Below, in pieces: positions 3,001 to 58,337 of a DNA stretch of 64,000 nucleotides. Position numbers and translations under genes: made by a program. Source of the DNA: Amedibacillus dolichus DSM 3991 (GTDB taxonomy: Bacteria; Bacillota_I; Bacilli_A; Erysipelotrichales; Erysipelotrichaceae); the NCBI RefSeq assembly GCF_000154285.1, contig NZ_DS483460.1, positions 1 through 64,000 on the forward strand, given 5' to 3'. The notes beneath the pieces were generated by a model. That model ran no database searches. It saw only the letters and a program-made list of their open reading frames with translations, and was not told the origin of the DNA. Position 1 is the stretch's first letter. Each line of letters begins with the position of its first letter.

Positions 3001-6000
3001 AGCCTCCTATGAGGAATACAAGGCCAACCTGCGCCGCAATGCACAAAACTTCCGTATTACCGATGAGCATTTGGGTGAAGGCGGTCCGAAAGCCAAGTTC
3101 CAGGCAAATATCAATGCCATTCGTTTGCTGAAAGAGCTGGAAGTTGCCGGACAGCAGGCAAGCCCTGAACAGCAGGAGGTTCTTTCCCGCTATGTGGGCT
3201 GGGGCGGTCTTGCCGACGCCTTTGACCCGGAGAAACCGGCATGGGCTTCCGAGTATGCCCAGCTGAAAGAGCTGCTGCCCCCGGAGGAATATGCCGCCGC
3301 CAGAAGCTCCACCCTCAACGCTCATTACACCAGTCCTACGGTCATTCAGGCCATCTATGAAGCGGTGAGCCGTATGGGATTTGAGACCGGAAATATTCTG
3401 GAGCCATCTATGGGTGTAGGCAATTTCTTCGGTATGCTGCCGGAGGAAATGCGAAACAGCCGTCTGTACGGCGTGGAGCTGGACCCGGTTTCCGGGCGCA
3501 TCGCAAAGCAGCTCTATCCCAAGGCGGACATCACAGTAGGCGGCTTTGAGACCACCGACAGGCGTGACTTCTTTGACCTTGCCATCGGCAATGTGCCTTT
3601 CGGTCAGTATCAGGTCAATGACAAAGCCTACAACAAGCTGAATTTCAACATTCATAATTACTTTTTCGCCAAAGCATTGGATCAGGTGCGTCCCGGCGGT
3701 GTGGTAGCTTTTGTGACCTCCCGCTATACCATGGATGCCAAGGATTCCACCGTGCGCCGCTATCTTGCCCAGCGTGCCGAGCTGCTGGGAGCGATCCGTC
3801 TGCCTAATGACGCGTTCAAAAAGAATGCCGGTGCCGAGGTTGTATCGGACATCATCTTTCTCCAAAAGCGGGACCGTCCGCTGGACATTGCACCAGAGTG
3901 GACGCAGACCGGCATTATCAGGGTTCCCGCAAAGTCGCAAGACTTTGTGGGAGAAGGAGGAGCGACGGAGCAAGCGAGCTTTTCGCCGCAAGGCGGAAAC
4001 GAGCAGGCGCAGTCCGCGACGACGCAGGATGGGTTTGCCATCAACCGGTATTTTATCGACCACCCGGAAATGGTGCTGGGCAGACAGGAGCCGGTAAGCA
4101 CTGCTCATGGTATGGATTACACCGTGAACCCTATCGAGGGACTGGAGCTTTCCGACCAGCTGCATGATGCTGTGAAGTACATTCATGGCACTTATCAGGA
4201 GGCAGAGGTGCCGGAGCTGGGCGAAGGCGAAGCCATTGACACCTCCATTCCTGCCGACCCAAATGTGAAGAACTATTCCTATGCCATTGTAGACGGGCAG
4301 GTGTACTATCGGGAAAACAGCCGCATGGTGCGCCCTGACCTCAACGCCACCGCCGAAGCCCGTGTGAAAGGTCTTGTGGGACTGCGTGATTGTGTGCAGG
4401 AACTGATCGACCTTCAGATGGATGCAGCGGTTCCAGACAGCACCATTACCCAAAAGCAGGCGGAACTGAACAGCCTCTATGACAGCTTTTCTGCAAAATA
4501 TGGCCTTATCAATGACCGTGCAAACCGCCTGGCCTATGCAGATGATTCTTCCTATTACCTGCTCTGTGCGCTGGAAGTCATCGACGAGGACGGGAAACTG
4601 GAACGTAAGGCGGATATGTTCACCAAACGAACCATCAAGCCCCATCAGGCAGTGGCTACTGTGGATACGGCAAGCGAAGCACTGGCGGTGTCCATCTCGG
4701 AAAAAGCCTGCGTAGATATGAGCTATATGAGTCGGCTTACCGGAAAAACAAAAGAAGCACTGGCCAGAGAACTGCAAGGCGTGATCTTCCGTGTGCCGGG
4801 ACAGCTGGAACAGGACGGCACACCCCATTATGTGACTGCTGATGAATACCTCTCTGGCAATGTACGCCGCAAACTGCGTCAGGCGCAGCGGGCGGCACAG
4901 CAGGACCCGGTTTATGCAGTCAATGTGGAAGCTCTTACTGCCGCGCAGCCCAAAGACCTGGATGCGTCGGAGATCGAGGTGCGTCTGGGCGCTACCTGGA
5001 TCGACAAAGAGTACATCCAGCAGTTTATGTATGAGACCTTCAACACCCCGTTTTATCTCCAGCGCAGCATTGAGGTCAACTATTCCTCCTTTACCGCTGA
5101 ATGGCAGATCAAGGGGAAATCTTCTGTATCCTACAACGATGTGGCAGCTTATACCACCTACGGAACCAGCCGCGCCAATGCTTATAAGATTTTGGAGGAC
5201 AGTCTGAACCTGCGGGATGTCCGTATCTATGACACCATAGAGGACGCGGATGGAAAAGAGCGCCGCGTGCTGAATGCCAAGGAGACCACCCTGGCTGCTC
5301 AAAAACAGCAGGCGATCCGGGAAGCCTTTAGGGACTGGATCTGGAGAAACCCGGAGCGCCGCCAGACTTTGGTGCGCCAGTATAACGAAGAAATGAACTC
5401 TACCCGTCCCCGCGAGTATGATGGCAGCCATATCACTTTTGGCGGCATGAACCCGGCCATTACCCTGCGGGAACACCAGAAAAGTGCCATCGCCCATGTG
5501 CTGTATGGCGGAAATACCCTGCTGGCACACGAAGTAGGCGCAGGCAAAACCTTTGAGATGGTGGCCGCTGCGATGGAAGCCAAACGCCTGGGCTTGTGCC
5601 AGAAATCTCTCTTTGTGGTTCCCAACCACCTGACTGAGCAGTGGGCATCGGAGTTTCTGCGCCTCTATCCTTCTGCCAACATCTTAGTCACAACCAAAAA
5701 GGACTTTGAGACCCATAACCGCAAGAAGTTCTGCGCCCGTATTGCAACCGGTGACTACGACGCCATCATCATGGGACACAGCCAGTTTGAGCGTATCCCC
5801 ATCAGCCGGGAGCGCCAGGAACGGCTTCTCTATGAGCAGATCGACGAGATCACCGAGGGCATCGCAGAGGTGCAGGCCAGCGGCGGAGAGCGTTTTACCG
5901 TCAAGCAGCTGGAGCGTACCAGAAAGTCTCTGGAAGCCAGACTGGAAAAGCTGCAAGCCGAGGGGCGAAAAGATGATGTGGTAACTTTTGAGCAGCTGGG

Positions 6001-56412: not shown

Positions 56413-56441
56413 TTGACAAGAGTATCCATGCTTTTTATAAT
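56413..56441 (+). promoter_or_regulatory. Consensus promoter of the ABC-F gene
   Basis: TTGACA (56413-56418), a 17-base spacer and TATAAT (56436-56441), both perfect consensus. Such a strong promoter before a 100-base leader suggests control after initiation. Confidence 0.85.
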
Positions 56442-56465
56442 AAAGAAAGATTGGAGCGTGAAAAG

Positions 56466-56477
56466 ATGTACAGATAA
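56466..56477 (+). CDS. Three-codon upstream ORF (Met-Tyr-Arg)
   Basis: ATG TAC AGA TAA at 56466-56477, with GGAG at 56453-56456, nine bases upstream. It begins about 17 bases after the predicted transcript start and ends just before the attenuator hairpin. Tiny leader ORFs of this kind let stalled ribosomes switch attenuators ahead of antibiotic-resistance ABC-F genes. The assignment is inference from layout. Confidence 0.5.
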   Translation: MYR

Positions 56478-56479
56478 AG

Positions 56480-56521
56480 ATAATGAAGCTAAATCATAGA
56501 TGCCATATTCATTATTTTTTT
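56480..56521 (+). terminator. Attenuator-like terminator ahead of the ABC-F gene
   Basis: ATAATGAA (56480-56487) pairs perfectly with TTCATTAT (56508-56515) and is followed by six T. The 20-base loop contains AAATCA (56491-56496), which could pair with TGATTT (56545-56550) beside the ribosome site. A short CCTC/GAGG hairpin (56532-56535 with 56541-56544) could mask the Shine-Dalgarno sequence. Confidence 0.55.
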
Positions 56522-56552
56522 CTGTTCACAGCCTCATTTGGAGGTGATTTTC

Positions 56553-58103
56553 ATGCTTGTATTTGAAAACTTAACAATTAAAGATTTAAAGAATCATTAT
56601 TTTATCGAGGATTTTTCGTATTCCCTAGGAAATATGGAAAGACTTGCTATTATTGGAGAAGAGGGCAACGGCAAAAGTTCGTTGTTGAAATGTATAATCA
56701 ATCGCAAAGCGGTCGAAGAATATATGGCCGTGAACGGAAAAATTATGTGTGATATGGAGCATATCGGCTATTTACCTCAGCAGCTTCCACATATTTGGGA
56801 TTCTGTATGCATCTGTGATTATATCTTAAAAAAAGAACCTGAGGAGGAACTAGCGGTTGAACGCTATAATGAATTACAAGAATTCAATAATCTTTGTGGC
56901 AGATTGCATCTGCCAAGTGATTTGCTGCTAAGAGATCAAACAATGGGGAGTTTAAGTGGGGGAGAAAAGGTAAAACTGCAAATTCTTAAACTGATGAAGG
57001 AACCGGTGGAACTGTTACTATTAGATGAGCCAACCAATGATTTGGATATTGCCGCATTGGAATGGCTAGAGAGCTTTTTGAAAAGCTGTGCATTGCCGAT
57101 TATTTTTATTTCTCATGATGTAAAGCTTTTGGAAAATAGTGCTACTACGATTTTACATCTGGAACAATTAAATCATCAAAGCAAATGCCGCCATACGATT
57201 TTTAAGGGTGGTTATCGGGAATATGTGGAAACACGTAAGGCACAGCTTGATAAAGCGATACAGCAGGCAAGAAAAGAAAAACAAGCATATATGAAGCAAA
57301 TGCAAAAGCTGAATGATGTAAAAAATGCAGTTCATGATGCATTGAATGATACAGTTCGTAATCCCTCACAGGCTGCCTTGCTGAAGAAGAAAATACAAGC
57401 TATTAAGGCACAGGAGAAACGCTTTGAAAAAGAAAGCTATGCGCATGTTGACAGCGTGGAAGAAGGAATTCAAATATTTTTTGAAAATGTAGCATTGCCG
57501 GTTAATAAAACGATATTGGATATGGAATTGGATTGCTTGCAGGTACAGGAAAGAGCTTTGCTGTATGATGTAAAACTGTTTGTTAAGGGAAAGGACAAGC
57601 TTATTCTAACCGGTGATAATGGTACGGGGAAAAGCATGCTGTTAAAGGAAATATACGCACAGCTATGGCAGAGGAAGGACATTTGCTTGGGCTATATGCC
57701 ACAAGATTATCAAGCGAAGATGGACTATGAACAAACACCGATTGAATTTTTGGCAGAAAGCAAGGATCGTAAGGATATTACACGAGTAAGAGAGCTATTA
57801 GGTGCTATGAAGTTTACCGGTGAAGAAATGACACATAAGATAAGAGAGCTAAGTGAAGGGCAAAAGGCAAAGCTTTATTTTTTGCGTTTTATTAAGCTTC
57901 GCTGTAATGTGCTATTATTAGATGAGCCTACGCGCAATTTATCTCCCTTAAGCAGTCCGTTGATAATCGAGCTGTTGGATAACTTTACCGGTTGTATAAT
58001 TTGTGTAACGCATGATCGACTGTTAATGGAAAGACTGCATGCAATGCACTATGAAATCAAGGATCAACGATTGTTATTGTGCGAGGATCGTTGCAGTGAA
58101 TAA
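56553..58103 (+). CDS. ABC-F family ATPase, possible ribosome-protection protein
   Basis: A 516-residue soluble protein with two ABC domains and no membrane part. Domain one has IGEEGNGKSSLLK, LSGGEKVKLQ and LLLDEPTNDLD. A charged interdomain linker follows (about 205-285, QARKEKQAYMKQMQKLNDVK), placed where ABC-F proteins reach the ribosome's peptidyl-transferase centre. Domain two has LTGDNGTGKSMLL, LSEGQKAKLYF and LLLDEPTRNLS. The second Walker B region ends in NLSPLS rather than NLD. Resistance to lincosamide-, streptogramin- or pleuromutilin-type drugs is possible but cannot be read from sequence. ATG 56553 follows GGAGGTGA. Confidence 0.85.
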   Translation: MLVFENLTIKDLKNHYFIEDFSYSLGNMERLAIIGEEGNGKSSLLKCIINRKAVEEYMAVNGKIMCDMEHIGYLPQQLPHIWDSVCICDYILKKEPEEELAVERYNELQEFNNLCGRLHLPSDLLLRDQTMGSLSGGEKVKLQILKLMKEPVELLLLDEPTNDLDIAALEWLESFLKSCALPIIFISHDVKLLENSATTILHLEQLNHQSKCRHTIFKGGYREYVETRKAQLDKAIQQARKEKQAYMKQMQKLNDVKNAVHDALNDTVRNPSQAALLKKKIQAIKAQEKRFEKESYAHVDSVEEGIQIFFENVALPVNKTILDMELDCLQVQERALLYDVKLFVKGKDKLILTGDNGTGKSMLLKEIYAQLWQRKDICLGYMPQDYQAKMDYEQTPIEFLAESKDRKDITRVRELLGAMKFTGEEMTHKIRELSEGQKAKLYFLRFIKLRCNVLLLDEPTRNLSPLSSPLIIELLDNFTGCIICVTHDRLLMERLHAMHYEIKDQRLLLCEDRCSE

Positions 58104-58287: not shown

Positions 58288-58337
58288 GGGGGGGGGTATG
58301 TTATTATATTAAAGTAAGCGCATACGTAAGCGTTTGC
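58288..58337 (+). promoter_or_regulatory. Promoter region with a nine-G tract and tandem GTAAGCG motifs
   Basis: Nine G in a row (58288-58296) sit just upstream of a TATTAT/TATATT -10 candidate (58302-58310), where the spacer to a -35 box would be. No good -35 is seen. Directly downstream, GTAAGCG occurs twice (58314-58320 and 58326-58332). The second reads GTAAGCGTTTGC and resembles the core of CcpA/LacI-type sites. A leader of about 180 bases to the gene follows, without a clear structure. Confidence 0.5.

Follow-up and report, generated by a model that had tools for sequence, protein, structure and literature searches.

What controls the ABC-F ATPase gene at positions 56553 to 58103 (+ strand) of the window, a 64,000-nucleotide stretch of Amedibacillus dolichus DSM 3991 DNA? 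The gene begins with an ATG at 56553 and encodes a 516-residue protein of a subfamily without a curated name. The region ahead of it had been read, from the letters alone, as a ribosome-stalling attenuator induced by antibiotics. We put the probability that it is a compact ribosome-mediated attenuator of the vmlR, cplR, and msrD kind at roughly three in four, namely that a ribosome stalled on a short upstream open reading frame (uORF) blocks a transcription terminator and, probably, makes the ABC-F start site accessible as well. The attenuation part of the earlier reading is strongly supported by the anatomy of the leader and by its conservation across the family, while for the drug inducer and the resistance role we infer only.

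Within the 140 bases ahead of the gene lies a σA promoter, TTGACA-17-TATAAT (56413–56441, + strand), which matches the consensus at 12 of 12 positions and is the sole exact match within the 64 kb (0.01 expected). The three-codon uORF, ATG TAC AGA TAA (56466–56477, + strand), encodes Met-Tyr-Arg (MYR). Its Shine-Dalgarno sequence (SD) is extended, GGAG-C-GTGA (56453–56461, + strand). Specifically, GGAG (56453–56456) lies nine bases ahead of the ATG, and GTGA (56458–56461) forms the extension; the sequence GTGANA before the ATG is kept in relatives. Thus, both the perfect promoter and the three-codon ORF with its own SD, as claimed in the sequence-only reading, are present. The extended SD GGNGTGA is complementary to the 3’ end of 16S rRNA, and the conservation of GTGA needs no other explanation than this match. 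A 13-codon ORF started by the GTG at 56458 overlaps the uORF, but it was rejected because only one base would separate its SD from its start and because its frame is lost in a relative (L009). The conserved GTG is therefore read as part of the extended SD, not as a start codon. A whole-genome pattern search for further three-codon uORFs of this type returned only the leader site and a repeated coding-region stretch. A 23-base coding-region stretch (5962–5984) has an exact copy on contig C6 (12475) of the same genome and is perhaps part of a duplicated mobile element.

Downstream of the uORF ATG lies one main hairpin, a terminator candidate (56476–56519, + strand; −8.5 kcal/mol), in which AAAGATAATGAA (56476–56487) pairs with TTCATTATTTTT (56508–56519). 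The last two bases of the uORF stop codon are the first two of the 5’ arm, and a run of seven Ts (56515–56521, + strand) places the expected early termination site near 56520. The sequence-only reading had described an 8-bp hairpin with a T run; the hairpin and the U7 are there, and the hairpin has 12 pairs rather than eight. This potential intrinsic terminator lies between the uORF and the gene, and its stem is weak: the core preceding the U run contributes −4.0 kcal/mol and is almost wholly A-U. Folding of the full leader is more stable than that of 200 out of 200 shuffles (z = −4.0), with only 87 nt from the uORF ATG to the ABC-F ATG. An Rfam search of the leader with an E-value limit of 5 gave chance-level matches to unrelated families only.

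The ABC-F start site, which had been called possibly masked, could be covered by two predicted helices. The anti-SD GCCTC (56531–56535, + strand) is able to pair with GGAGGT of the ABC-F SD, GGAGGTGA (56540–56547, + strand), forming 5 bp with −6.0 kcal/mol; L009 has a comparable SD hairpin, GCCTCTAACAGGAGGT. In addition, an 11-bp helix (−11.8 kcal/mol) is predicted between the uORF SD region (56454–56464, + strand) and a strand that spans the ABC-F ATG (56548–56558, + strand). With a ribosome placed on the uORF, opening the start site is predicted to cost 10.6 kcal/mol instead of 14.5 kcal/mol, a drop also seen in shuffles (z 0.6). Accessibility of the ABC-F SD rises only from 0.29 to 0.38; it is a weak release test for the window, and opening energy and swap tests were used instead. 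Across the family, release of the start site is significant (p = 0.003), whereas the window alone does not go beyond its shuffles. The translational part is the weaker half of the mechanism.

The decisive evidence for a switch, as judged from sequence, is comparative. The ABC-F gene was searched for in 273 genomes of the same bacterial family, and the leaders of 108 genes were read; these relatives are not independent, which applies to all leader counts given here. When all that is required is a general SD, matching over 4 bases or more, and a length of three codons or fewer, a uORF is found in 34 of the 108 leaders (shuffle mean 7.1, largest 11). With the extended SD, defined after looking as a GTG directly ahead of the ATG, and a limit of 10 codons, a uORF is found in 70 of 108, compared with 3.4 in shuffles. 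As a control, 57 leaders of two ABC-F genes of housekeeping type, taken from the same bacterial family, gave 3/57 in either test. A short SD-bearing uORF is thus conserved among the orthologues. The peptide MYR is identical in L009 and L011, whose ABC-F proteins share 54% and 50% identity with that of the window. Other relatives encode MYNR, MYRK, MKR, MKN, MKL, MRN, MRK, and MRLR, among others, and the second residue among the 70 leaders is Lys in 22, Tyr in 17, and Arg in 15. The uORF encoding MRLR (L018) lies 143 bases upstream of its gene; we take MRLR to be the minimal macrolide-stalling motif of ErmD-type leaders. The window gene has its own promoter and a short leader, and in relatives σA-like promoters (at least 9/12) precede 43 of the 70 uORFs, compared with 12% in shuffles, mostly at a distance of 17–29 bases.

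RNA structure is conserved along with the uORF. For the window, downstream pairing of the stop codon and the next ten bases has a mean probability of 0.90, compared with 0.34 when the downstream part is shuffled; over the 70 leaders, pairing of the footprint region is 0.51 versus 0.30 in shuffles (p = 3.5e-6). An RNA structure whose 5’ arm falls inside the footprint of a uORF-bound ribosome is thus supported for the window and its relatives. Terminator-like hairpins with a stability of at least 5 kcal/mol are enriched (25 of 70 leaders versus 7.1 in shuffles). L021, L023, L088, and L101 share the arrangement of the window, a terminator arm beginning at the uORF stop. In L010, L018, and L029, the terminator is further downstream, adjoining the gene, and the uORF-side arm pairs with a segment free of a U run. 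The leaders are too diverged for a single covariance model. In a swap test on 48 distinct leaders, pairing of each uORF end with the downstream arm of the same leader is ~3 kcal/mol better than with arms taken from the others (0 of 5000 permutations did as well), and the two have thus coevolved. The uORF ribosome site likewise prefers its own ABC-F start region, more weakly (family-wide p = 0.0028).

These features suggest how the leader may work. Transcription would start near 56448. Without stress, Met-Tyr-Arg would be translated, the ribosome would leave, the hairpin at 56476–56519 would form, and RNA polymerase would stop near 56520; in transcripts that read through, the ABC-F start site would stay at least partly paired. 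A drug that blocks the first peptide bonds, of the pleuromutilin, lincosamide, or streptogramin A type, would hold the ribosome on the uORF. The footprint of the stalled ribosome, placed at ~56457–56489 on the basis of a toeprint 16 nt downstream of the P-site codon in vmlR (PMC9226507), would cover the terminator 5’ arm and most of the strand that masks the ATG. Because its 5’ arm is covered, the terminator would be unable to form, and with both strands occupied the ABC-F gene would be transcribed and translated. Pleuromutilins, lincosamides, and streptogramins A are likelier inducers than macrolide-type drugs, because a three-residue peptide is probably too short for the tunnel contacts of the macrolide type. 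The variable uORF peptide fits drugs with little need for sequence context, and not amino-acid sensing.

Very short uORFs have precedents in MIN of vmlR (PMC9226507) and in MR[I/M] of cplR, MK[L/Q] of VmlR2, and MAGN of LsaA (PMC10201436); MYLIFM of msrD is a further short one (PMC10314930). The Bacillus subtilis vmlR leader also has a three-codon, SD-bearing uORF, and before its ABC-F gene a terminator and an SD-masking stem, for which the window has candidates; the peptides MDN, MDK, and MRK work there as well (PMC9226507), and MRK is present in two of the relatives (L016 and L056). However, the vmlR leader is 219 nt long and has four stem-loops with separate anti-antiterminator, antiterminator, and terminator, as opposed to 87 nt between the two ATGs and one main hairpin in the window. 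Clostridioides difficile cplR (PMC10201436) shares the three-codon uORF and, as proposed for the window, has joint attenuation of transcription and translation and a terminator near the gene start, but its 212-nt leader has two stem-loops and an antiterminator switch, and CplR is a curated antibiotic-resistance (ARE) family that the window protein does not match (222/780 bits). The msrD leader has no antiterminator: its stalled ribosome acts directly on an intrinsic terminator of about −8 kcal/mol and blocks it (PMC10314930), as proposed here, and the MsrDL peptide also starts with Met-Tyr. It differs in having six codons and macrolide-specific stalling through tunnel contacts, whereas a peptide of three codons is too short for such contacts. 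Listeria rli53, ahead of lmo0919 (vgaL), is likewise a short-uORF attenuator before an ABC-F gene, and the Rfam search gave no match of the window leader to it. The window leader may thus combine the direct block of msrD with the three-codon sensor of vmlR and cplR.

The predicted structure of the protein (AlphaFold, pLDDT 81.8) is a single chain without a membrane domain, in which two long helices (221–266 and 271–298) form the linker between two ABC domains, as expected of an ABC-F ATPase. In a fold search, every top match is an ABC-F protein; the ribosome-bound Sal(B), PoxtA, and VmlR2 rank first, and EttA and Uup follow closely. With the general ribosomal-protection ABC-F model (cut-off 380), the window protein reaches 283 bits, and it reaches at most 223 bits with the named resistance families (CplR, Vga, Sal, Msr, Lsa, OptrA, and others; cut-offs at least 680). 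In the tree, in which reference PDB chain 7p48 is Sal(B) according to the fold search, the subfamily stands apart as a well-supported clade on a long stem; branches are long, and a firm sister group among known AREs was not found. In the second ABC domain, the unusual DEPTRNLSP and LSEGQKAK replace the usual ABC-F motifs in nearly all members. The gene is patchy, occurring in 111 of 273 genomes, compared with 105 of 116 for a housekeeping ABC-F, although thresholds and samples differ between the two counts and many genomes are incomplete. Such patchiness matches a published sign of resistance ABCFs (PMC6723617). The protein is most likely a ribosome-protection factor. Another ABC-F of the same genome (L128, C16:8916–10436) groups with OptrA (support 99) and is near-universal in the family, and is probably a housekeeping relative of OptrA. 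Downstream of the ABC-F gene, a run of nine Gs (58288–58296) lies ~210 bases upstream of a gene for a 1578-residue secreted, surface-type protein. Such G runs can change length and switch expression.

Three other explanations were weighed. The leader could be mainly translational, its A-U hairpin being no true terminator and the stalled ribosome just freeing the ABC-F start, as in the erm genes. The weak stem speaks for this, as do the two helices predicted to mask the start site and the family-wide swap and release tests. The weak stem and, in several relatives (L010, L018), a uORF-side arm that lacks a U run also count against the preferred attenuator. Yet the U7 follows exactly after the stem, terminator-like hairpins are enriched in the family, the msrD terminator, which is proven to work, is predicted to be about as stable (−7.9 kcal/mol; PMC10314930), and release of the window's own start site is no greater than in shuffles; we consider a mainly translational leader unlikely. 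That the pieces came together by chance, a strong promoter and an A-T-rich leader happening to hold a three-codon ORF and a hairpin, is already disfavoured and very improbable. Three-codon ORFs and A-U hairpins are frequent in A-T-rich DNA, and shuffles themselves give about 7 of 108, but chance would have to account for MYR shared at 50–54% protein identity, for enrichment over both shuffles and housekeeping leaders, and for the swap test.

The uORF might also sense some other translation stress, such as a shortage of charged tRNA, ribosome stalling, or cold, with the ABC-F protein acting as a general translation factor rather than in resistance. The scores below the cut-offs of all ARE families, which also count against a drug-induced attenuator, agree with this, as do the separate clade and the unusual second nucleotide-binding domain. 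However, the uORF codons differ between relatives, so that what is read is not one particular amino acid; over half of the family's genomes gave no match to the gene, in contrast to a housekeeping ABC-F; and the best structural matches include ribosome-bound resistance-type proteins, with EttA and Uup ranking close to them. We therefore regard a general stress sensor as quite improbable. The attenuator remains the preferred reading and is well supported, and antibiotic induction and resistance are plausible.

A similar layout is also seen beyond the family. In mitis-group streptococci (L038–L046), a uORF encoding MNN lies ~190–280 bases before an ABC-F gene with ~37% protein identity. In S. 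infantis (L040), the promoter TTGACA-17-TATGAT is followed by the MNN uORF, which lies in a long hairpin with T6 at its end. The uORF of a Mycoplasmatota relative (L043) encodes MKINK. Consistent with these occurrences, the switch appears to travel with the gene subfamily and not with a single lineage, and the streptococcal protein is possibly an unrecognised inducible ABC-F. This kind of regulation is already known, whereas the ABC-F subfamily that carries it is apparently undescribed; no earlier description in Erysipelotrichaceae or pneumococcus was found in the literature searched, a result that by itself does not prove absence. More tentatively, and at somewhat less than even odds, we propose an undescribed inducible ribosome-protecting ABC-F subfamily of this gut family and the mitis-group streptococci, governed by a minimal switch with a single hairpin, in which one stalled ribosome would open two locks, the terminator arm overlapping the stop codon and the helix between the uORF ribosome site and the ABC-F start codon. 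If this is true, many gut bacteria and oral streptococci would carry a hidden, inducible resistance factor, an ABC-F protein without a specific name in curated models; the tiny uORF could be used to find further such genes, and the leader would serve as a minimal model of the shortest form that a drug-sensing attenuator can take.
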